Positions 197 to 56,000 of a DNA stretch of 64,000 nt are shown here, piece by piece. The position numbers and the translations under genes were made by a program. The DNA comes from Antedon mediterranea (lineage: Eukaryota > Echinodermata > Crinoidea > Comatulida > Antedonidae), in assembly GCF_964355755.1 (NCBI RefSeq), contig NC_092678.1, positions 643,922-707,921 of the forward strand, in the 5' to 3' direction. Numbering within the stretch: position 1 is the first letter of the stretch; each line of letters opens with the position of its first letter. Under the pieces are notes generated by a model. The model saw only the letters and a program-made list of their open reading frames with translations, was not told where the DNA came from and did not search any database.

Positions 197-3100
197 CTGA
201 TTCTTGTCACCAACTGATCAAGATCATCTATAACCTCCATCACCCATCTGTAAAAGAAAAAACAAACAATTTATGTATCAACTTTAAAGCCATGGATAAA
301 TGTGTATTTTCGATAAATAAAAAAATTAATTAAGAGACGTTTAATATATCATTTTAAAATCATGGAACCATTTTCAAGAACAAATGAGTAAAATTAGCAA
401 AATAAAAGTACCAAAGGATGATGGGAAATACAAAGCACCAAAGGGTGATGGGAAATATAAAGTACCAAAGGGTGATGGGAAATATAAAGTACCAAAGGGT
501 GATGGGAAATATAAAGTACCAAAGGGTGATGGGAAATATAAAGTACCAAAGGGTGATGGGAAATATAAAGTACCAAAGGGTGATGGGAAATATAAAGTAC
601 CAAAGGGTGATGGGAAATATAAAGTACCAAAGGGTGATGGGAAATACTATAAACAATTAGTAACAAAGACTGAAAATCCTAAAAAGATAGGCTTCTTCTC
701 TCGTTAATTATCAAACAATTTTGCTTTCATGGAGTCAATCAAAGCAAAATTGATCTTTATTGTTATTAAATTTTATTTTAAAGATGATAAAAAAAATAAT
801 GAAGAATTCATGTTGGTAATTATACCCTTGTTTATGTCTTTTGACAAGTGCCTCTTTATTGACCTCAGCAATGACTCCAATACAGCCACTTATAACAGCA
901 GCTTTAGCTTGAGCTCCACTCATACCACCAAGACCAGATGTTAGCAGCACACGCCCACTTAAGTCACCTGACTTGAAACAACGCCGACCCGCATTTAGAA
1001 CAGTTATCTGAAAATTGCAACAGGTTGTTTATAACAATACAATTTAATTATGAGGATCAATCATAAAAATTATTCTTATCTGATATAATTTACATAACAT
1101 TATGTATTCGTCATCGAACATGAATATCATACATAAAATTGATTGTCAGAAAAACCTATTATTGAATGAATGACTTACTGTAGTTCCGTGTACAATTCCT
1201 TGTGGGCCTATGTAACAGTAGCTGCCAGCTGTCATCTGTCCATACCTGAAACCAATAAAGTACAGTATATTCATTATAGGCCACCACAAACTCAAATAGC
1301 ACGCCCTCTGCATTAAGTATTTTTTTACAGTAATGGTCATTCATTCATGACAATAATGATGATGATAACGATGATGATAAATGATGATGATAAATAATTA
1401 TGATGATAATGACGATGATGATGAAGATTATGAATTCATGATGATGATGATGATGAATTCATGATGATGATGATGAATTCATGATGATGAATTCATGATG
1501 ATGAATTCATGATGATGATGACAATGATGATGACAATGATGAGGAAGATGATGATGAAGATATGATAATAATGATGATGACAATACTTACATTGTCACTC
1601 CAAGTGCGAAAAGTCTGTTGTACATTTCCCTACTTGAATAATTTGGAATCACCTTGAACAAATTAGACATAATATCCAAAAGTTAGTGTTTTCATTTTAG
1701 CTGATAAGAGGGAAGAGTGATCAGAATGTGTCTCGGCATGATGTCAATAATCGTAGTACTATGCTTGTTGGTTGTCGCAAATTGAAAGCTCCCTCTAGTC
1801 TACTTTTACATAAATCTCACCATGCCATTTGTAATAACCAAACCTGGTGCCTCAGCATGGCTTGGAAACAAGCCCTGTGAATGGCCAGAGTTCATATCAA
1901 GTGATTACATAATACTCACCATTCCATTTGTGATAACCAAACGTGGTGCCTCAGCATGGCTTGGAAACAAGCCCTGTGGATGGCCAGAGTTCATTACAAG
2001 TGTTTACATAATACTCACCATTCCATTAGTGATAACCAAACGTGGTGCGTCAGCATGGCTTGGAAACAAGCCCTGTGGATGGCCAGAGTTCATATCAAGT
2101 GATTACATAATACTCACCATTCCATTTGTGATGACCAAACGTGGTGCCTCAGCATGGCTTGGAAACAAGCCCTGTGGATGGCCAGAGTTCATTACAAGTG
2201 TTTACATAATACTCACCATTCCATTAGTGATAACCAAACGTGGTGCGTCAGCATGGCTTGGAAACAAGCCCTGTGGATGGCCAGAGTTCATATCAAGTGA
2301 TTACATAATACTCACCATTCCATTTGTGATGACCAAACGTGGTGCCTCAGCATGGCTTGGAAACAAGCCCTGTGGATGGCCAGAGTTCATATCAAGTGAT
2401 TACATAATACTCACCATTCCATTTGTGATGACCAAACGTGGTGCCTCAGCATGGCTTGGAAACAAGCCCTGTGGATGGCCAGAGTTCATTACAAGTGTTT
2501 ACATAATACTCACCATTCCATTAGTGATAACCAAACGTGGTGCGTCAGCATGGCTTGGAAACAAGCCCTGTGGATGGCCAGAGTTCATATCAAGTGATTA
2601 CATAATACTCACCATTCCATTTGTGATGACCAAACGTGGTGCCTCAGCATGGCTTGGAAACAAGCCCTGTGGATGGCCAGAGTTCATATCAAGTGATTAC
2701 ATAATACTCACCATTCCATTTGTGATGACCAAACGTGGTGCCTCAGCATGGCTTGGAAACAAGCCCTGTGAATGGCCAGAGTTCATATCAAGTGATTACA
2801 TAATACTCACCATTCCATTTGTGATAACCAAACGTGGTGCCTCAGCATGGCTTGGAAACAAGCCCTGTGGATGGCCAGAGTTCATTACAAGTGATTACAT
2901 AATACTCACCATTCCATTTGTGATAACCAAACGTGGTGCCTCAGCATGGCTTGGAAACAAGCCCTGTGGATGGCCAGAGTTCATTACAAGTGTTTGCTCC
3001 TCTGTCATCTCTGATAAATAGTTCATCACAATCCAAAACTACAGAAAAGAAAACTGTAAAGGTTACAAACATATTATCAGCATTATTTAATCAACATTCT

Positions 3101-16530: not shown

Positions 16531-19500
16531 ATGAATCGTAACAGCAATAGATCATCAAGTGGTAGCCGTGCATCAAATGGAAGCCGTGCATCGCTAGCGC
16601 CTCTACGTATTAAACAAGAAAATGCACACGGTATGACTTTAATTTTTTTGTTTGACATTTTATTTAGACAGCATATAGGTTGGCTTAAAAATCAAAATTG
16701 TATTACATAATCTTTCTTGATATTTTTAGCTGGGTCAAGAGGTCGGTCTTTAGCTGGCGGACGTTTGTCGACAGGAGCAAGTTCAAAGGCATCAACCAGT
16801 CGAAGTTCACTGGGCACGTCAAAGAAATCATTGATTCCTAAAGCCAACATGGGTGGCCTTAGCAAAAGGTTTGTGTCTTAAAAACAAATAATTGTGCAGG
16901 ATTAAATATACTAGAAGGTGGTGATAATAAAAGGTAGAAATGTGCCCAGTGTGAAAGAACAGTTAAAAATGCATCAATATTTTTCAATGATAGTTTTTCT
17001 TATTTTAATACAGTAGGCGGTCAAGTAACTATGGACGTCAAACCTATGGACATGAGGTGGTCAAGGACCCACGCCCTATCAGTGATAAATCATTCATGCA
17101 TCGTGAAATCAAAGATATCGTTGAGGTAAACTTCTCTCTCATTTTCCTTCTCTGGTTATTTTGGTAGCTTATCATTTCATTCTAATATCTAATACAATGT
17201 TGTTTTTTATTTCAGTTTCTGGTAGACAATCGCTATCCCACACCGGTAACAACTAAGTCACTAGTGACGCCAACAACCAAGGACTTTCTCAGAATATTTG
17301 AGTTTATTTATGCATTTTTGGAACCAAAATTTGTGATTCCTACAAAGCATGAGGAAGAGTTACCAAAAATATTGAAAACAATTGGGTGAGGAGAGAGATG
17401 ACAGGTTCTGTATTAAAAATAGTTTAAATGAAACAAAACCTATAAATCACTAATGCTCAAAAGGTCATCGCTCTTAAATTGACCCTCTTGTTTTATCTAC
17501 AAAAGTACTTAAATCCTACCCCAAGGGTTTTTCACACAAGCGCCACTAGTTTGGAACCAGCTTCCACTCCGTATCTGTCAATGTAAATTTCTTAAGCAAT
17601 TCAAATCACTTCTAAAATCTTACCTTTTTCAATAATTCTTGTTGGTCTTTTAACACTGTGAAACATCAGTAAATAGAACTTTATAAATGTTTATTATTAT
17701 TATTAATGCAAACTGACTTAACGTGATGTTTTTAATTTGTTTATATCTTGTGTTTTCTAGCTACCTATTTACCATTAGTAAGAGCTCCCTTTATACCATT
17801 GGTAGCCCTCATAAGTGGCCTCATCTACTGGCCCAACGTGATGTTTTTAATTTGTTTATATCTTGTTTTCTAGCTACCCATTTACCATTAGTAAGAGCTC
17901 CCTTTATACCATTGGTAGCCCTCATACGTGGCCTCATCTACTGGCCTAACGTGATGTTTTTAATTTGTTTATATCTTGTGTTTTCTAGCTATCCATTTAC
18001 CATTAGTAAGAGCTCCCTTTATACCATTGGTAGCCCTCATACGTGGCCTCATCTACTGGCCTAACGTGATGTTTTTAATTTGTTTATATCTTGTGTTTTC
18101 TAGCTATCCATTTACCATTAGTAAGAGCTCCCTTTATACCATTGGTAGCCCTCATATGTGGCCTCATCTACTGGCCTAACGTGATGTTTTTAATTTGTTT
18201 ATATCTTGTGTTTTCTAGCTATCCATTTACCATTAGTAAGAGCTCCCTTTATACCATTGGTAGCCCTCATATGTGGCCTCATCTACTGGCCTAACGTGAT
18301 GTTTTTAATTTGTTTATATCTTGTGTTTTCTAGCTATCCATTTACCATTAGTAAGAGCTCCCTTTATACCATTGGTAGCCCTCATACGTGGCCTCATCTA
18401 CTGGCCTAACGTGATGTTTTTAATTTGTTTATATCTTGTGTTTTCTAGCTATCCATTTACCATTAGTAAGAGCTCCCTTTATACCATTGGTAGCCCTCAT
18501 ATGTGGCCTCATCTACTGGCCTAACGTGATGTTTTTAATTTGTTTATATCTTGTGTTTTCTAGCTATCCATTTACCATTAGTAAGAGCTCCCTTTATACC
18601 ATTGGTAGCCCTCATATGTGGCCTCATCTACTGGCCTAACGTGATGTTTTTAATTTGTTTATATCTTGTGTTTTCTAGCTATCCATTTACCATTAGTAAG
18701 AGCTCCCTTTATACCATTGGTAGCCCTCATACGTGGCCTCATCTACTGGCAGCTCTGCATTGGCTTATGGAATTAGTAAAGGTAATAATTCAATCTTATA
18801 TCTATGTTGAAATACAAAAAAAAAAAATACAATCAATGAACCCTTACAGACTGTATAAAGATGCCCAAATAAGGAATAAAGATGCCTAAAGAAGTAATAA
18901 AGTTTCCCAAATGAGGAATAAAGATGCCCAAATAAAGAATAAAAATGCCCAAATAAGTAATAAAGATGCCCAAATAAGGGATAAAGATTCCCAAATAAGG
19001 AATCAAACAGCAACAAAAAGATGAAACATCTTTAGAATCAATATCTTGATCTACAGTATTTGAAGAGGAGTGCTAGTTAATCAAACCTAGCACCATTTTG
19101 ATTTTATGGTCATTCAGAAAAGTATCTAATGCAAAACATTACTAATTTTTTTGTAGTGTGGAATGAATATGAAGCCAGAAGTAATGCTGTATCAATGTGA
19201 AGATGATATTGCAGACGAGTTTGATGGTAAAACTGAAGCTCAGGTAAGTATATTATGTAAATAAAAGCTTAGCAGTTTGATAAGTACCCTGGCAGAATGC
19301 TTAGCAGTTAAATAAGTACCAAGACAGAATGCTAAGCAGTTCAATAAGTACCAAGACAGAATGCTAAGCAGTTCAATAAGTACCAAGACAGAATGCTAAG
19401 CAGTTCAATAAGTACCAAGACAGAATGCTAAGCAGTTCAATAAGTACCAAGACAGAATGTTAAGCAGTTCAATAAGTACCAAGACAGAATGCTAAGCAGT

Positions 19501-22500
19501 TAAATAAGTACATAAATGCTAATGTAGGAACATCATTGTCAATACCATTTTTGTTTTTATTTGTCAGATTCTGTATGAGTTTGTAGAATGTACGTATGAT
19601 GCATTTTTAGCTGGGTCAGATGAATATGAGGAAGAAGAGAAAGCCCTTGCGCAAGAATTTAGTAAGTTGTTGAATCGTTCATGAAAACTTATATGGCGTT
19701 ATCCTAACGATGTGAAAGACTAATAATAATTCATTATGTCATTGCCTCATACTTCAGATGGGTCTTTAAGCCGTTGGTCGTGTACTTAGCACATGTCTAC
19801 GATAAAGAACTTGGAAGAGGTTATTCAAAAATAGTAGAGAATTGTTTTTGGGTGTGCGGCCCTCTGGGAGGGAGAACAGTTTTGTTCTGAAAAGTTCACC
19901 CATTATTAAAAAGATAAATAAAACACCGGAGACCTCACATAGGAGACGCAGCAATGTGTGTTTTGAAGTTTGTGATTATTTAGCTGCAATATTAAATTGT
20001 GATTATTCGTTACAGGGCGCAAAGCAGTATGTGTGGCGGGTGACATGCAGCAACTGGAGGCAGAGAAGCAAAGACTAAGAGCAGAGTTACAAGTCTTAGA
20101 AAATGAACCAGTAATACAATTATCTTCAATACTCATTAATCAATTCAGTATCTGTTTGTTTTTTTAATTAATAGTGGAGCTTTTGGGTCGTGGCTACCTA
20201 GTGTATGACCTACATGTCATAGGTCATTGTGTGACCTACATGTCAAAACCACTGAACTTGTTCCTAGGTTGTTGATTGTATCTCTTTTTAGCTTTACAAA
20301 ATGCTTCAAATTTGTTAATAGTATCATATCATTTATTTTGCCATATAGAAAAAACAAACAGAACCAATGTAAATCTATGAGACAGGATTACCTAAATGTT
20401 ATAACAAAAATAACAGTATAACCATAGTTACAGTAAACAGAATAGTTTTAGTAATCATAAAACAATTTGCTTTCTTCAGTGCCAATTAACTTTGTTGCAA
20501 GAACGCTATCAGGTGATGCAGATTGACAACAACCGTTTCAAGAACTACCTGATAGAACTTGACAATCACAGACGAGCACAAGAACAAAAACTGACAGAGG
20601 TTGACTGCAGATACCAACAAGAAGGTAAGGCGAGCTCACTGTTTAATTAGACATAATAAGACTTAAGTACGCCCCTATCTCCAATTTACACAGTGTAGAT
20701 CCTATGCTAAGGCTCCATTAATGTTTTAAATACAAACTTTTAATGGAACCACACAGAAATCAACATACTATTGTGTATTATATTACACAGGATTGATGAC
20801 ATCAATATTCATGTTATGCGTACAATAATGGTACGTCCTATTATCATACTTGCTTAAGCTCTGTCTACACTATCAAAGTTTATGTGACAAAATAAATGTG
20901 ATGTACCCTTATATGGTCATATCACTACCATATGTGGGCATATCACTACCATATATGGTCATATCACTACCATGTGTGGGCACTAGAACAAGTATTATTT
21001 TTGCAGCTCTTGCATATGAGCAAACACAAGCTGAAAACCAACAGCTGCAACACATCTTTGACACCCAGGAGCTGAGTGCTACGGACGTTGAGAGGATCAA
21101 AATGCAACAAAGAGAACTGGCACAAACACTGCAAGCTTTGGAGAAAGAAAAAGAATCACTTGATCGAGAAATATGGCAAGAAGAGAAAGCGATAGCAAAG
21201 AAGAGAGAACAGGTTCGAATTTGTCAACAAACTATCATATACAGTAGAACCTCCATTTTACGTACGGTACGGGACCGAAAGGCGTACGTAAAACAAGGGA
21301 TTCGTAAAATCAAGGTTGACCTTAACTTGACCCCAAATACGTAGAGATCGTAGCTAGCCGTATTTGCCTACTTCTGTACTGTGTACAGTATGCGTCACTA
21401 GCTTAGCTAGGCCTAGGCTATTCAGGCTAGGCTAGCAGGGCTAGCAAGATGTGAGGCCTAACTAGAAAAGTACAGTTATACAGGCTGTGCGATGTTTAAA
21501 TAAAGTGTAAAATATAATTGTTTTCTATCAATAAAAACAGTCGCTGCTTTAGGGGGAATGCACGTGCGTAGCTTGTCCCCCACACACAGCAGAATTCCTC
21601 ACACAGCCATGATTGTGGCTTTGTGTGCTTTGTTGTTGTTAAATTGCGCCCTCAATGTAAGAAAATGATGACGTCATCGGTTATTTTAAGCGTACGTAAA
21701 ATCGAGGGAACGTAAAATCAGGGTACGTAAAACACAGGTTCTACTGTAGTTGTATATTAAAAAAAATTTAAGCATGGATATATTATACAGTCGCCTCCGC
21801 CTAAGTCGAATCTAATGGGACCGGTATAAAAATTTGAGTTACGCGAACTTCGACTTACAGATTTGCAAAAAAATGCTAGGCCTAGGTTCACTCACTAGCT
21901 GCGCTATAGCTAGGCCTAGTAGACCCTGCCCTGTCGCGATCGCGGCCCACGCGATGAGCCTTCTTGAATTGAGTTGGCTTAGCTAGCTAGCTAGGCCTAA
22001 TAAATGCTAAGCCTCTTTTATCGGCAATGATAAACTGTATTTTCTTTTATGGTTTAAGCCCGAAACAATACAAAAACGTATAATAAATACATTTCGGTTC
22101 TTATTCGAAATCGGTATCCATTGTTTATTGCCATCTGTCTAGCACAAAATGGGTACCCACAAAACGCCGCTCAAGTTCTCAACTCTGAAAAAACAACTCA
22201 TACACTATACACTAGCGCGAGTTGTAGGACGCCGCCTATACTATACAACCTGCTTGAGAGAACCAATATGGTCCCACATTATCTCCTCTGTCGTTTGTTT
22301 ATCGAATTACGTACGTTTCATCGGCTTTTTTAGCGCGTTGTTGCCGCGTGATTTGTGACTTCGACTTATACGATATAAATCACTAAAGAATGTGTGTATT
22401 CGGACCGCAAAAAGACGTCGGCTTAGACGAATTTCGACTTAGAAAAATTCGACTTACAAATAAAAATTACACAGTAATGTATAGGAAAGAATTGGGACTT

Positions 22501-25068
22501 TCATAAAAATTCGACTTTCGCGATTTTTCGACTTACACGAATTCGACTGTAATTATAACTGTATTTCAGCAATATACTGTAAGCCATGAATCATAATTGC
22601 ATCTTTTTGCCCAGGTGTACAGAGGACTATAATTTCACAATTTTTACTGAGAATCAATAATACTTTTAAAAGTTTAAATTGTAACCATGAAAGTTTAAAA
22701 CTTTACAGACGATTTTAACTAATTAATACAATGACAGACTTAAATAAACATTGCTTGTAAATTTAATAATTTGTTGTTTGTAGATCGACCAACAATGATA
22801 TTATATTTTCTATACCTAATAATTTATTCTAATAACCTAGATGCTATGACTAATAATAATAATAATTTAATAATTTGTTGTTTGTAGATCGACCAACAAG
22901 CTCAAACGTACAACAACATGGCTCGTAAGTTGAAGCTGATTCCCTCAACTGCAGAGAACGCTCATGGCATTGATTATGAACTAAGACTTAACTTTGTCTC
23001 ACAACATCCAGACCACAATAGCATGATGAACTTTGCTAACATGATCAAGGTTTGTAGTGACATCTGTCTACACTATCTTACTTTATGTCTAAAAATGTGA
23101 TGTGCTCATATATGGATATGATGATGTCATATCACTACCCTATTTGGACATATCACTACCCTAGTTAGTGTAAACAGAGATGTGTTTTCAGTTTTCTAAT
23201 CTTGTTTCCACAGGTATTTTAATTTAGATTCTCTCTACTATGTGTTTGATCTTTCCGGAAAAGTCTTAATAAATAATTTTAATCTTTGAACTGCCCAGGA
23301 TTTTTAGGGTAGATACAGACAACTGTATACCAAATAAATTAAAAAAGAATTTTATTATGAATTCATCATATGTATTTGTATCGAATTAAATGATTTTTTA
23401 TTTTTTTTGGTAGCCTGCTTTGTTACAGTTAAAGAAACAGGTAAAAGAGACCCTCCATGATATCACTAATAAACTTGCCATGGAAAAGGAAACGTTGGAA
23501 CAGGTCAGTAGCAAAATTAACCTTTGACATTGTGTCAGGTCATACACTATTTGACCTATTAACCTACAACAAAGCAAACGTCAACAAAAGTATATAAAAA
23601 TTTTTATTTTAATAAGTTGATACTATTTATTTTATTGAAGATCTCAGAGATGGTTGAAAATAAACAAGATGAAATTGGACTTCAGGAAACCAAATTAGAA
23701 AGAGCTGAAAGGGAGTTCTTAAGTCATAAAGAGGTACATACATTAAATATATAGATATCAGCATCACTGGTTACAATAAGAGAATAGATATTGGACAGAT
23801 GAATAAGCATTGTTTGCTGGCAACTGTTGCTTGTATTCCCCACATTTACAGGCTATTCCGCACATTTACAGGCTATTCCGCACATTTACAGGCTATTCCC
23901 CACATTTACAGGCTATTCCCCACATTTACAGGCTATTCCCCACATTTACATATAACTATAATCATAAAATAAAACCAGAACATTAAAGTTGGAATGAGAA
24001 CGCAAACCTCTTGATTTAACAGGAATACCGTACAACAATATCAAACCTAAAACACTTTTATAAAGAAACATCTTACTCAGATAGTCTATGTTTTGTATTT
24101 GCAGCGTTTGAACAAAGAATACAAATCGAGTATCGAACAGGTTCATATTCTAGAGTCAGAGTTTCTTGAATTAAAACAACTTTCGGAAACAGATGTGGAA
24201 ATCCAAGCTAGAGAATTGGCCGAGATGAAACGAAAGTAAGAGTTTTCTACAAAAGTACCCTCTTTACTTTGAGGGTAATTATGGTTTAATGCTGTTACTC
24301 TGTATGTATTCCTAGTATACAACATTCAACACTTAAGCTTGGTTCTCACTAGGATGCAAGGCAAGGACGTAGATGCAAACGAGTTGCTTCATTGCTTCTT
24401 GTGATTGGTCAAATCCCTTGCATTACTGTTGTGTTGCGTCTCTATTGAGAACCAACCGTTAATTTTAAGAGTTGCTGACGATGTAATGGTATTTCCCTTG
24501 GCCTAACCTACAACATAACTAAAGCACTCTCTACACTATATTTGACAAAAAAAGTGTGATGTACCCAAATATGGTAGTGATATTTCCAAATATGGTGCAG
24601 TGATATGACATCTTCATGTCCATATGAGCACATCTCATTGTTTGTTGTCACATAAAGTTTGATAGTGTGGACAGAGCTTAACATTTTCTTCTATCTAAGG
24701 GCTCATCAAGAGTTATTGAAAATGAATGAGGAGAAGAATCAGTACAACAGTTTCCTGCTAGATGCTGTGAATGTCATCCTACAACATAAAACAGAAATAC
24801 AGGTATGCTATACTAAGACGTCACATGGGGTTTGGTTCGCTCTTCTATCGACCTGAAGATGCAGTTCTAATTTATCCCCATTTGTAAAAACATGGTTGTT
24901 CTTCCCTTAACATTAAATATTATGTACAGTATAAACATTAAAAAAAATTGTAATGATTGTATTAATTTGTGTACTACTAAATACAGTATATTATTTTTTA
25001 AATATTTTCAGGAACGGATTGAGCAATTGCACAGAAAAGCAGAAGAGGATCTTGCCGAGTTGGAGTAA
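16531..25068 (+). CDS. NDC80: Kinetochore protein NDC80 (HEC1), complete
   Basis: Microtubule-binding subunit of the outer-kinetochore NDC80 complex. Sixteen coding exons: 16531-16630, 16730-16868, 17014-17125, 17216-17385, 18679-18781, 19157-19243, 19568-19661, 20016-20110, 20480-20624, 21007-21212, 22888-23049, 23414-23503, 23641-23733, 24105-24235, 24700-24802, 25012-25068. They join in frame to 1887 nt, 628 residues (human about 642). The N-terminal tail is basic and Ser-rich with RxS sites typical of Aurora B targets (RAS at 13-15 and 19-21, RLS at 45-47). [11 protein letters not shown] and the calponin-homology domain follow (about 90-210: [36 protein letters not shown]). The rest is long coiled coil rich in Gln, Glu and Lys. 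ATG follows TTTGTAGAAG, so a 5' UTR intron may end at 16527. Odd: exon 5 is preceded by eight partial copies. Confidence 0.96.
17522..17706 (+). mobile_element. LINE 3' end fragment
   Basis: Reads in one frame [20 protein letters not shown], then [11 protein letters not shown] and stop TAA at 17633. This is the typical C-terminus of a CR1/RTE-like non-LTR reverse transcriptase ORF. A short 3' tail ends in ATT repeats (17691-17706). The NDC80 exon-5 array starts directly after it. It is heavily 5'-truncated, as usual for LINE copies. Confidence 0.75.
17719..18751 (+). repeat. About 115-bp tandem array of NDC80 exon 5 acceptor region, 9 copies
   Basis: Exon starts after the acceptor are at 17761, 17874, 17989, 18104, 18219, 18334, 18449, 18564 and 18679 (spacing 113 once, then 115). 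Each unit holds a branch-point-like CTAAC (TTAAC in the first), a T-rich tract, TTTTCTAG and the first 73 nt of the exon. Copies differ mainly at codon 192: AAG in copy 1, then ACG, ACG, ATG, ATG, ACG, ATG, ATG, ACG. Tandem 67-residue open frames here are by-products. Confidence 0.93.
18679..18781 (+). CDS. NDC80: NDC80 exon 5, genuine copy at the end of the array
   Basis: Begins after TGTTTTCTAG, completes the codon for Gly174, reads [20 protein letters not shown] and then [14 protein letters not shown], and ends at AAAG|GTAATA. It is the only copy that continues past CTACTGGC into AGCTCTGCATTGG and has a donor. All others run into CTAACGTGATG with an in-frame stop (GCC TAA). Confidence 0.93.
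18850..19010. repeat. 21-22-bp repeat in NDC80 intron 5
   Basis: Imperfect units around AATAAAGATGCCCAAATAAG, about 7 copies. Confidence 0.8.
19266..19510. repeat. 32-bp minisatellite in NDC80 intron 6, about 8 copies
   Basis: Unit AAGCAGTTCAATAAGTACCA plus AGACAGAATGCT. Confidence 0.9.
20855..20985. mobile_element. MITE copy (AGCTCTGTC family), right arm lost
   Basis: Begins AAGCTCTGTCTACACTATCA; the interior repeats CATATCACTACCATAT. No right arm is visible before the acceptor of NDC80 exon 10 at 21007. Confidence 0.7.
21240..21748. mobile_element. TA-flanked inverted-repeat element (MITE) in NDC80 intron 10
   Basis: The left end TACAGTAGAACCTCCATTTT and the right end AAAACACAGGTTCTACTGTA are inverted repeats bounded by TA, as in Tc1/mariner-type non-autonomous elements. 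The interior repeats CGTACGTAAAA motifs near both ends. No transposase frame. Confidence 0.75.
21786..22551. mobile_element. Second TA-flanked element (MITE) in NDC80 intron 10
   Basis: Starts TACAGTCGCCTCCGCCTAAG and ends CACGAATTCGACTGTA. Subterminal arrays of TTCGACTTA motifs are present in both halves. TA on both sides. It lies 38 bp after the previous element. The weak open frames inside are not coding. Confidence 0.7.
22763..22797 (+). repeat. Duplicated acceptor of NDC80 exon 11
   Basis: AATTTGTTGTTTGTAG plus ATCGACCAACAA at 22768-22795 repeats exactly at 22872-22899, where it opens genuine exon 11. The upstream copy diverges after 12 exon bases. Separation is 104 bp. It is a possible decoy 3' splice site. 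Confidence 0.85.
23063..23182. mobile_element. MITE copy (AGCTCTGTC family)
   Basis: Starts about 14 bp after the donor of NDC80 exon 11 with CATCTGTCTACACTATC and ends TTAGTGTAAACAGAGATG. Confidence 0.65.
23848..23950. repeat. 20-bp minisatellite in NDC80 intron 13, about 5 copies
   Basis: Unit CACATTTACAGGCTATTCCC. Confidence 0.85.
24527..24682. mobile_element. MITE copy (AGCTCTGTC family)
   Basis: Left arm CACTCTCTACACTATATTTG, right arm AAGTTTGATAGTGTGGACAG then AGCTTA. It ends about 17 bp before the acceptor of NDC80 exon 15. Confidence 0.75.
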
Positions 25069-47000: not shown

Positions 47001-50000
47001 ACAGTTTGATTTCACGCAACGAGAACACTGGAAAACATTGTACATCGCATACTCAAAAGTACACGGGGTGAACCAGGTCAAAGTCTATGGCTAGCTAATG
47101 TTGACGCACAACAAGCAGGTTTGATTTAACGCAGACGGGGGCAAACACAATTATTGGAAGGGCATTTTCTTATGTAGCGTCGCTAGTGGGAACAGGACTT
47201 TAAATTGATTCCTTCATCTTCCTAATATTTTGCTCATATTGTGCCTTACCTGTACATCCATTAGGACCAAATCCAAAGGTGCCAGGTGCGCATTGGTTGC
47301 AGGCTCTACCCATTACGTTTGGTTTGCAGTCGCACTGGCCTCCGTAACTGTCGCAGATGTTACTGGTAGATCCGGTAGAATCACAACCACAATCTGAGAA
47401 AAATAAAAACAGATTTAAAATAAAAAGGATTTATTTATGATTAAAATTAATTTTCTATAGCAATATTAACTTGGTTTAGAGAAGAAGAAAAAAATGTTTT
47501 CCCAATTCTACTGTATTAATATATCTTTGTATAGGCTTTTGTGCAATCATTTATTTTGAAAAAAATTTTTATAAAAAAAAAATAAAAAAAAAAAAAATAT
47601 ATATATAATTATCATTGGTTTTATACTTTTATACAAATTTTAATATTGAACAAATGTAAATATCTTTGTAATTCAGCTAAGGCTGCGATAATGATATTGA
47701 AATAAATGAAATGAAATGAAAAAAAAAAAAAATTTATTTTAATATATTATATATTTTTTTCTTAATGTTATTTATTTGGTATTTAAATTTTCTCCATGTT
47801 TTGAGATTGAAGTTTTGTGAAGTTTTTTTTCTGTGTTTTTTAATACCAAAATAAATTACCAATGCCTCCGTTGTACGTCATGGCTGACATTATAAAGAGC
47901 AAGTCCTGACAAGTTTCTTGTAGTTCTTGTTTATCCACCCTGTAGAATGGATCCATGCAGCTGTAGTAGTTCCAGTTGTCAAGACGTAAGCCACCGCTCT
48001 GCTCGGAGAATGGCGCTAGGTTGCCGGGCTGTGGCAGCAGGGCAATCTGGGTAATAAAACATTTGAAGAATATAAATATACAGTGCTGTAGTCACGAGAA
48101 TTAAAAGGGTGCGGTTGTTGAAACAGGAGGGAACACTCTCTTGTGCGACAACCTATACATTCATTTAAAATTGAAAAACCTTTGCCTACAATTTTGTCCC
48201 CATATTTTTTAGCTATATTCAGAAGCCTAAAAAACCTATGAACAAAGGTTATACCAAAGCTCTTACTTCCCAGATGAGAGCACAAACTCTGCACAATCAC
48301 AGTCCAATATAAACATATTTGTTAATAACATATTTTACATAAACGATTATTCAGCATTATATAACAGTGATGTAGCCACAAGAATTAAATGGTGTGGTTG
48401 TTGAAGTGGGCCATGGGTTGTCAAAAGGCTTTTGCCAAAAAAGTGGTCAGGTTGAAACCTTACCAACCGTACTGGTTTATACAGCCCTGATATATAATGT
48501 ACTATCTCCAGATCTATAACATAGTTCTTTCTATCGCAAAGGATTGAGAGGTCACTCAGGTCACTTTTTGAAGTGATGATACTGCAACTCTTCTATTTTT
48601 TATTTCTCCCTACCTAGTATGATATAAACCTGTAACATGAAATATCATATGAATGAAAAGTGTATTAAAAAACTTACCGAGTCGATACGAATGACAGCAT
48701 CTGGTCGTGATTGTCCCACAATAAGGCTGCGGAATTCAAGTCTTATTATGTACCGTTCACCTTTTTCCAAACAAAACAAATCTGGAAGTGTACTACGATG
48801 CCTGTGTGCAAATAAAACACAAAATAATGATGAAATTCTAATTAAAAAAGATACAGAAACCAACAGTAATGTTGAGTACTTACTCAGATAAACCAACAGT
48901 GATGTTGTCTATGAGTACTTACTCAGATAAACCAACAGTAATGTTGAGTACTTACTCAGATAAACCAACAGTAATGTTGAGTACTTACTCAGATAAACCA
49001 ACAGTAATGTTGAGTACTTACTCAGATAAACCGACAGTGATGTTGTCGTTGAGTACTTACTCAGATAAACCGACAGTGATGTTGTCGTTGAGTACTTACT
49101 CAGATAAACCGACAGTGATGTTGTCGTTGAGTACTTACTCAGATAAACCGACAGTGATGTTGTCGTTGAGTACTTACTCAGATAAACCGACAGTGATGTT
49201 GTCGTTGAGTACTTACTCAGATAAACCGACAGTGATGTTGTCGTTGAGTACTTACTCAGATAAACCGACAGTACTCTAATCTCCTCAAAGAGCAAGATAT
49301 AACTTGATGGTGGTGGTTTGCGAGGATACTCCCACTTGAGGGCATAGTTCATGGATAACACCATTTATAAAGACGGTTAAATAAATGTACTTTTTTAGGC
49401 TTATCTATCTATCTCTTCAAGTCAGAGAGTACTGCTGTAGTTACTATACTAAAGATAAACATCCATTACACAAACATTATGTATGGTTAAGGAATGCAAC
49501 TATGTAGCACACTATGTAGAACTAACAGATATCTAAATTCATTCGTGCTTTCACTGTGTGTTATATCTTTATTACAACTCTTTACTTGTTTTATATTTAT
49601 TTTACTTATATATATTGTATGTTGTTGCATTGTTATGTGAGCGCTTGTGCCTGTCATGAATTTCCGCAAGGACCAAATAAATCTGAGCTGTAAACCTTGA
49701 AAAACAAAGTTAAACAAACAAATAGATAGATAATATACACATTTTTACATACAAATTTTGAGCAGTGTTTGCCTTCCATACCTGTCGTTAACAGACAATG
49801 CTACAACCAGTTCATCATCAGATGGGATTGTGTTTCCACAGATACTACTGGTATCAACTGGTCTTGGTCTCTCCAACGTTATTCTCACATCCTCCCACCA
49901 GCTGGCTGTCAGCTGTATCAACATAAATTGATAATAAAAGTTAGCTTAAGTACTGTGATGGGTTAGTACGCATCTTACTGGATGCGTGATTTGGACTTAA

Positions 50001-53000: not shown

Positions 53001-56000
53001 TAATATACGCTAGGCCATATGAGGCCTAGCGGTCCTGTTTTGTTTACACTCCATCGCGGTCGAAGATCGCTTCACACACGGCGCTACAAGTCGCCAAAAC
53101 GGAAAACCACTATTTGGTATCGGCTGCCATAAACAAGCTTATTAAATTTCTTTGGTACATTTCTATTTAACGAACATTGTATACTTGCTTTTCTGCTTGA
53201 TAAATTCTTGTTCAATTGATGTTTAAAATAAGATATTATACGATAAATTACACGAACTATAAGCTTAATTTTCCGACACTCTACACCTCGTGTATTTAGA
53301 GGCAACGTCGTACACGTGAGGGCGCTCGCTCGCATGGTGGAATACACAGTGTACATGTGCTGTTTTTGACGATCTGCATTTTTGGATCCTCGGGTATAAG
53401 CCCACCCCCCAAACTTGACGTGATTTCATGTTCGAGGGGGGTGGGCTTATACCCGCGTCAGTACGGTATATAGAAATATATTTCATCAATACATATTGAT
53501 ATTATTGATAATGATAACATTTTTTTTTTACTGCAGTAAAAACATGTCTTACCTTCACAGCCGTCAGGATTATTTTCTTGTAAGTTCCAGAAACCGTTCA
53601 TGCATGTATCGCAACGCTTACCGTTCACATAGCGTTTACACAAACATCTACCGGCCTCTAGGTTCATCATGGCGTCGGTTCGGCTCTCGCATTCTCCTCC
53701 CATCTCAGAACCACTCGGATCACAATCACAAGCTAGAAAAAACAAAAACAAGGATTTAATATTGTAATCCAAAAATAAAAATGAAAACTGTCTGAATAAA
53801 CATGAGAGTAGTCAACTCTCCCAATACCGTACTAAACTCTGCCAATACCGTACTAAACTCTCCCAATACCGTACTCAACTCTCCCAATACCGTACTCAAC
53901 TCTCCCAATACCGTACTCAACTCTCCCAATACCGTACTCAACTCTCCCAATACTGTACTCAACTCTCCCAATACCGTCCTAAACTCTCCCAATACCGTCC
54001 TAAACTCTCCCAATACCGTACTCAACTCTCCCAATACCGTACTCAACTCTCCCAATACCGGTACTCAACTCTCCCAATACCGTACTCAACTCTCCCAATA
54101 CCGTACTAAACTCTCCCAATACCGGTACTCAACTCTCCCAATACCGTACTCAACTCTCCCAATACCGTGCTAAACTCTCCCAATACCGTACTCAACTCTC
54201 CCAATACCGTACTAAACTCTCCCAATACCGTACTCAACTCTGCCAAAAACGTACTCAACTCTGCCAATACCGTACTCAACTCTCCCAATACCGTACTCAA
54301 CTCTCTCGATACCGTACTCAACTCTGCCGATACCGTACTCAACCCTGCCAATACCGTACTCAACTCTGCCAATACCGTACTCAACTCTGCCAATACCGTA
54401 CTCAACTCTGCCAATACCGTACTCAACTCTGCCAATACCGTACTCAACTCTGCCAATACCGTACTCAACTCTGCCAATACCGTACTCAACTCTGCCAATA
54501 CCGTACTCTCTAAAATACGGAAACTCTCCCAAAACCAGACTTTTCGTAAGGTCCAAAAGGTCACAAATTCATTTTTGCCATTAGAAACACATTCTGAATA
54601 CCAGAATTTCCAGAAAACCAGAAAATTAGGCCAGCCCAAAGGTGTCCGATATTGAGAGAGTTGACTGTATCACTAAACCCTGTAGTATTATATAAAAGAT
54701 CTATCAGTACACCTTATTAAACTTTACTACTAAACTAACTAAAAGTTTTGGCAGAATACTACAGTAAATTAATATTTGCATACACAGGCAGGAAGCATAG
54801 TAATTTAAAATTGAATTAATTTGTAACGTACAGTGTATTAACTCACATGCATAGAGAAACTCTAGACTGCCCAGTGATATACTGGAAATTAATTTACTTA
54901 TAAACGGTAAAGATAATATTCCATACATGTATTACTATTAAAGCCCTATAAATTAACCAAAATATATGTAGTTGTTCTACATGCATTAGAGTTTTCCATT
55001 CGTTAACTTTTAATTCACAAATCAATGAAAGTTTAAAATCAGAGGCAATTTAACTACTGGTGATACAATTTACAAGTCACTAGTAGAACAGTGGGGGATC
55101 AAAACCACAAATTAAAAATAAATTCCAGCTGATATGTATGTCTACAAGCTCCAATCAAGGTCATAGTTCATTAGATCGAGGGCGGTGTATGTGACTTTTG
55201 GTAAAGGTTAGATGGTTTTTGTTGTTGTCGGCTCTTGGTGTAAATCCCATGAGTATAAAGATAGTTTATTTCATGACAAATTTAATGTTATTTTTGGTTT
55301 CTGGTTTCATTTATAAATACCCTTTAATCTGGAGTTAGGCAGCCCATAGCCTTTGAGTCCACAGCAGTAGCAAACCTGCCAATCTTTAAAGTAAAAACTA
55401 CAGCTATATATTTTTTTCTGTGATTCAAAGGTGCACAAAAGCAATAGTTTCAAGTAAATATATGTAAATAATATAAAATCTACACAAAAGTAATTGATCT
55501 ATATATTTTAAGATGAGTTTTGTTGCGTAATATTAGGTAATCATACACATACTATGTACATATTTAAACTAAAGATTTCAAAAAAAATATTAAAATTCAT
55601 AAACAAATATTGTACATCAACTTTCAAATACCAATATGAACAGTAAAAAAATCATTATTTGAAAATTTAGTTGGGCTGGCCTAATATATCTGTTTTTCCA
55701 GAAATCTTGATATTTCGATAATGTGATTTTAATGGTAGTAAAAACAGAATTTTAAAAATTCTGGCATATCTATTCGGTTTTCAGATTTTTCGGTATCGAG
55801 AAAGTTGATGACTATCTGAATTGTTGTATGTGGGTTGTTTTCTAGCATGGTTGTCGGTAGGTTGTAACAGCAGCAGCCTAATCAACTACAGACTGCAGAC
55901 AGATGGTGTGCAAATATATTTTTAATGTTATGATCTTTGTTCCGAAAGTCTAAAGTGGAATTTATGAGTTGCATTTGAATACAAACATTTTAGAGAAAAT

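Follow-up and report, generated by a model that had tools for sequence, protein, structure and literature searches.

How can an exon be spliced when its acceptor stands nine times in a row? The question is raised by NDC80, a gene in the 64,000-nucleotide (nt) stretch of DNA analysed here (the window), in which a unit of 115 base pairs (bp) spanning the boundary of intron 4 and exon 5 is repeated in tandem. We consider it highly probable that this array is a minisatellite of the type called a mirage: a 115-bp boundary stretch that was tandemly duplicated, amplified and homogenised, the ninth acceptor being functional and the eight copies in front of it being decoys within the intron.

Anatomy and history of the NDC80 array

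The gene and its array are composed as follows.

16531-25068, plus strand: NDC80 gene, 16 coding exons, 628 codons without internal stop (hand-built GT-AG model, Pfam, PDB)
17216-17385, plus strand: NDC80 exon 4, with donor GTGAGG at 17386 (hand-built model)
17712-18750, plus strand: NDC80 minisatellite, 115 bp × 9.1 copies (Tandem Repeats Finder, copy comparison)
17719-17833, plus strand: decoy copy 1, with proline to leucine and threonine to lysine changes in the exon part and GCC without TAA
17834-17946, plus strand: decoy copy 2, with a 2-nt deletion in the pyrimidine tract and CCCAAC in the branch region
17947-18636, plus strand: decoy copies 3-8, differing from one another at one site only (ACG/ATG)
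18635-18678, plus strand: ninth and presumably real acceptor, with branch-like CCTAAC, pyrimidine tract and AG
18679-18781, plus strand: NDC80 exon 5, 103 nt, part of the CH domain, with donor GTAATA at 18782

Tandem Repeats Finder gave the minisatellite a match of 98% between copies and a score of 1987, far above chance. Nine TTTTCTAG acceptors end at 17760, 17873, 17988, 18103, 18218, 18333, 18448, 18563 and 18678, the first interval being 113 bp and the seven others 115 bp. In each unit, ~43 nt from the end of intron 4, with branch-like site, pyrimidine tract and TTTTCTAG, are followed by the initial 72 nt of exon 5. An earlier reading of this DNA from its letters (the original prediction) had described nine consecutive acceptor modules of about 115 bp, of which only the last was complete, and on both points it agrees with our analysis, as copy 9 alone runs on into CAGCTCTGCATTGG... 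and the donor at 18782. Two details had to be amended. The shared exon part, given as 73 nt, is 72 nt long, since at nucleotide 73 of the exon the decoys have C where the real copy has A. The branch-like CTAAC assigned to every copy is found, as CCTAAC, in seven of the nine (copies 3-9), with CTTAAC in copy 1 and CCCAAC in copy 2.

The array thus combines a tandem unit that spans a splice boundary, a unit size and a number of copies usual for minisatellites, and a single complete copy on the exon side. Its interior is homogeneous and one edge (copies 1 and 2) has diverged; the opposite edge, copy 9, has not. These are the structural features of a mirage, and by its anatomy the NDC80 array is one, of a kind already described in amphioxus.

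Differences between the copies are informative about its history. Copies 3-9 differ at a single site, which reads ACG or ATG and runs C-T-T-C-T-T-C along the array, and at the junction base of copy 9, whereas copies 1 and 2 show three to five differences from the remaining copies and from one another. The order of the variable base points to duplication in blocks of three units. This variable codon encodes the threonine of an HTW motif shared with human HEC1: threonine is encoded by the real copy and by decoys 2, 3 and 6, methionine by four decoys and lysine by one, and decoy 1 in addition has leucine in place of the proline of a YPF motif. Compared with the human YPF...HTW, both the proline and the threonine are kept in the last copy, and one or both are altered in five of the eight decoys. 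The decoys have therefore altered residues that the real copy has retained, at few sites.

In the history that we propose, a 115-bp stretch spanning intron 4 and exon 5 would have been duplicated in tandem, and slippage or unequal exchange would then have amplified and homogenised the copies. ACTG is present at both borders of the repeated stretch, which is suggestive of slippage between short matches. The 3'-most copy would have remained the functional acceptor because it is the only one still joined to the rest of exon 5; the eight upstream copies would have turned into intron and persisted because their removal together with intron 4 works sufficiently well. With splicing to the ninth acceptor, the NDC80 protein would be unchanged.

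The identity of the gene is well founded. Its product matches Pfam Ndc80_HEC PF03801 (6.4e-45) and NDC80_loop PF24487 (3.4e-25). In PDB, human HEC1 is matched over the CH region (2ve7, 1.4e-36; 2igp, 4.4e-32). Both the N-terminal CH domain and the loop region of NDC80/HEC1 are thus present, and the placement of exon 5 in the CH domain by the original prediction holds. That prediction had also named a finding that would overturn it, a functional second NDC80 locus that would make this one a pseudogene. When the first 300 residues were searched against the whole assembly, 16 matches were obtained, all at this locus and corresponding to eight real exons and eight decoys; within the limits set by assembly gaps, no second NDC80 locus was found. 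With an intact frame and a single locus, a pseudogene or a spare copy was rejected. A transposon or dispersed repeat as the source of the array was likewise rejected, because the array stretch had one match, itself, from one scored candidate in the 354-Mb assembly. NDC80 is essential in the eukaryotes in which it has been studied.

The introns of the hand-built model measure 90-464 nt, except for one of 1675 nt. Upstream of the array, intron 4 contains an open frame at 17513-17632, which to our eye resembles the end of the reverse transcriptase of a non-LTR (long terminal repeat) retrotransposon.

Presumed choice of the last acceptor

Site strength hardly separates the ninth acceptor from the decoys. 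Seven of the eight decoy acceptors are identical to the real one over 20 nt, the exception being copy 2 with its pyrimidine tract 2 nt shorter. The real acceptor scored 5.66, the fourth lowest value among the 15 acceptors of the gene (range -0.5 to 13.5; each real NDC80 site was excluded from its own training set). The exon ending at the donor at 18782, which scored 8.3 and is the best of the region, would be 103 nt long from acceptor 9, against 218 to 1021 nt from the decoys, and exon definition would favour the last acceptor through its short span to this good donor. That the last acceptor must be chosen reliably, as the original prediction asserted, is an inference.

Transcripts that used a decoy would presumably be short-lived. 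The original prediction that decoy use leads to GCC TAA is correct for decoys 2-8, in which this stop is met 81 residues after exon 4 begins; with GCC CAA in its place, decoy 1 stays open for 157 residues up to its first stop. Messenger RNAs (mRNAs) of these types would presumably be destroyed.

Several observations weigh against exon definition as a sufficient account. If the first decoy were used, the intron would measure 375 nt, similar to other introns of NDC80, and under intron definition the upstream site is the favoured one. In human splicing events that were surveyed, exon definition favours sites that lie near each other across the exon, and intron definition those near each other across the intron; a class with a long upstream and a short downstream intron is said there to mimic exon definition (PMC9225289). 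For 3' sites of similar strength between two long introns, the survey describes a reduced upstream preference and does not show its reversal (PMC9225289). Given the 375 nt from the donor of exon 4 to the first decoy, this evidence leaves the choice of the last site unsecured. Nor does folding help: two units folded about as well as their shuffles (z -0.46), and on this value RNA structure hiding the decoys was rejected. A further difficulty is a donor-like site in each copy.

17778-18701, plus strand: nine donor-like TTA/GTAAGA sites (the slash marks the splice position), with the G of GT at 17778, 17891, 18006, 18121, 18236, 18351, 18466, 18581 and 18696

These sites lie 17 nt inside the exon and scored 4.24, more than three of the 15 real donors (exons 4, 7 and 8; 2.2, 2.85 and 3.4). 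Contrary to the original prediction, the donor at 18782 is consequently not unique. Use of acceptor k together with the donor-like site in the next copy (k+1) would create pseudoexons of 132 nt (130 nt for the first), which exon definition alone leaves possible. A length of 132 nt is a multiple of three, and a stop is present at seven of the eight positions; the first pseudoexon shifts the frame.

The strongest alternative, to which we assign a lesser but real likelihood, is tolerated splicing noise: several acceptors would be used, faulty mRNA would be discarded and the last site would not be chosen precisely. The equality of seven decoy acceptors with the real one and the stops behind the decoys speak for such noise, but losing NDC80 mRNA on a large scale should be costly for an essential gene, and RT-PCR (reverse transcription followed by PCR) is reported to have shown regular splicing in amphioxus (PMC3087553). 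Tolerated noise is a variant of our preferred explanation at the step of acceptor choice; the two overlap, and their likelihoods should not be added.

A regulatory function is considerably less probable. Decoy acceptors and in-array donors might together act as a poison-exon device whose stop-bearing mRNAs would lower NDC80 in some cells. It is possible that pseudoexons regulate NDC80, as most of them have a length divisible by three and contain a stop, and the in-array donor scores fall inside the range of the real donors. The stop and the donor-like site nevertheless follow from the duplicated coding sequence itself, the differences between copies resemble ordinary minisatellite turnover, and comparable arrays occur in unrelated genes. 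Least probable of all is an assembly artefact, in which the assembler added or collapsed copies, because although near-identical copies are hard to assemble and an amphioxus mirage is reported to have been misassembled in a draft (PMC3087553), copies 1, 2 and 9 carry private differences, copies 3-9 show the C-T-T-C-T-T-C pattern and the window holds many further arrays of varied period.

A mirage with a presumably functional ninth acceptor remains our preferred explanation. As for its effect, the array is probably neutral and most likely a harmless passenger.

Comparable arrays in the window and elsewhere in the genome

Two further arrays over splice sites were found in the window, both on the minus strand and both duplicating a donor.

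1806-2992, minus strand: UROC1 donor array, 99 bp × 12, with 12 GTGAG donors, the first (2909) presumably being the real one
48871-49272, minus strand: donor array after an exon weakly similar to laminin IV type B, holding 11 GTAAGT donors at intervals of 33 or 39 bp

In UROC1, the first donor alone gives an exon free of stops, and the remaining 11 lead to a stop. The joined exons match Pfam Urocanase_N and Urocanase. The parallel drawn by the original prediction, a donor duplicated in UROC1 and an acceptor in NDC80, was thus confirmed by 12 donors in 99-bp units. The match of the second gene to laminin IV type B is weak (Pfam E 0.0027, with 17.6 bits where the cut-off is 27). At a threshold of 0.001 its exon had no Pfam match, it had no match in PDB, and coiled-coil peptides of the same stretch were uninformative; the name laminin-like is provisional. 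Elsewhere in the window, a 21-bp × 33 array occupies 53808-54528, with a long minus-strand open frame of 135 codons at 54124-54528.

To obtain a sample not chosen by eye, we located motor-domain exons by a whole-genome profile search, in which the first look scored 122 of 184 candidates for kinesin and 65 of 335 for myosin. The kinesin sample comprised the best 66 of 134 matches, each with 800 bp on either side. The myosin head sample comprised 47 of 80 matches, all 33 on C3, 31 of them one cluster, having been left out before the count. Mirages were present at two of the 113 sampled exon matches, one large and one small.

The large one (L042:2012-3446; G000 C5:31794088-31795522) is a 70 bp × 20.5 array over the acceptor of a kinesin motor exon and exceeds the NDC80 array: 22 acceptors in all precede or form the start of the exon GSERQSKTG, and every unit includes ~20 nt of the exon. 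We take this kinesin gene to be KIF3-like. The small one (L090:2349-2482, minus strand; G000 C5 ~1603838-1603971) is a decayed acceptor mirage before a myosin head exon, with two AAG/ACTTTCACTGGATCCATT copies and a partial third upstream of the real acceptor TAG/ACTTTTACTGGATCCATT, at which the exon TFTGSILVAVNPYQ begins. Three further mirages lie in the window, which was itself chosen because one was seen in it.

Other arrays lie at or near the ends of sampled matches. At L052, a 13 bp × 1.9 repeat reaches into the end of a kinesin match. Two arrays at L050 lie 28-29 bp outside kinesin matches and, on reading, are confined to the intron. Arrays reported at the ends of myosin matches at L070 and L084 start after the donor, with no edge inside.

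We asked whether arrays are targeted to splice sites. The window cover of 13.6%, summed over 24 intervals picked by hand from the Tandem Repeats Finder output, predicts about four edges within arrays for the 30 splice sites of NDC80, and one was seen. For kinesin, 132 edges at a cover of 5.8% predict ~8, and one was seen (L042); for myosin, 94 edges at 2.9% predict ~3, and none was seen, the L090 array stopping just before the real acceptor. In both samples the edges are those of profile matches, which only approximate exon edges. Edges in arrays were no commoner than cover predicts, and targeting was rejected. Without enrichment at splice sites, chance capture in a minisatellite-rich genome, followed by selection, suffices to account for the arrays.

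Some of the sampled loci had features of their own. L059 (G000 C9:4155800-4158200) holds two kinesin matches to the same profile range, ~0.9 kb apart and without a tandem array, which may be either a duplicate exon or a pseudogene. At L072, ~830-1130, one myosin exon stands in two adjacent, alternative-looking versions, reminiscent of the mutually exclusive exons that occur in muscle myosin. The 31 similarly scoring myosin head matches on C3 (G000 C3 ~19.6-25.1 Mb; 19 near profile positions 342-409 and 12 near 563-641) apparently represent many myosin genes clustered on a single chromosome.

Relation to known mirages

Minisatellites at splice boundaries have been described in the amphioxus globin genes BflGb6 and BflGb9 (PMC3087553), and the name mirage derives from work on amphioxus Adh (Canestro and others 2002, as cited in PMC3087553). 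In such genes both 5' and 3' boundaries can become duplicated (PMC3087553), and the NDC80 array has the same anatomy; it differs in its gene, its 115-bp unit and its nine copies. Amphioxus arrays in globin, Adh and troponin C, the last cited as a further case by PMC3902484, are reported to leave splicing undisturbed (PMC3087553, PMC3902484). The Adh mirage has units of 10-72 bp, in contrast to 115 bp here, and somatic length instability was reported for it (via PMC3087553). Repeats of 60 and 108 bp in lancelet PGBD5 likewise lie in tandem over splice sites, with copy numbers that vary between genome versions; unlike the NDC80 array, they have imperfect copies, and they belong to another gene and another animal (PMC3902484). 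Internal tandem repeats of human segmental duplications are also minisatellites that alter gene structure, some of them at exon-intron boundaries (PMC2812944). As described there, they elongate exons or are proposed as new introns (PMC2812944), whereas the NDC80 protein would stay the same with the ninth acceptor in use. Apart from these human repeats, no such array outside lancelets was recognised in titles and abstract starts of open-licence PubMed Central papers.

The reports found concern cephalochordates, a taxon that forms no part of the structural definition of a mirage, and the present host is probably not a cephalochordate. An amphioxus-derived fluorescent protein had no match in the genome, in a search that lacked a positive control. 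On C2, a 378-kb stretch holds 12 Hox-type homeodomains, and three posterior genes at one end of this cluster resemble Hox11/13 of echinoderms and hemichordates, which looks ambulacrarian. Eleven contigs of 22-41 Mb account for almost the whole assembly. An ambulacrarian host is likely, and it may be a crinoid.

Several mirages in a genome apparently unlike that of amphioxus suggest that mirages are not an amphioxus oddity. Tentatively, and with somewhat less than even confidence, we propose that in this ambulacrarian genome minisatellites capture splice sites regularly in ordinary genes, at about one exon in 100 and with up to 22 near-identical sites in succession, that the terminal site is picked by exon-wide rules and that the arrays feed new introns and pseudoexons. 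Runs of 9, 11, 12 and 22 near-identical sites offer a natural test of the position of the partner site against site strength in splicing. Genomes rich in minisatellites may be a steady source of raw material for new introns and pseudoexons, and of annotation errors.
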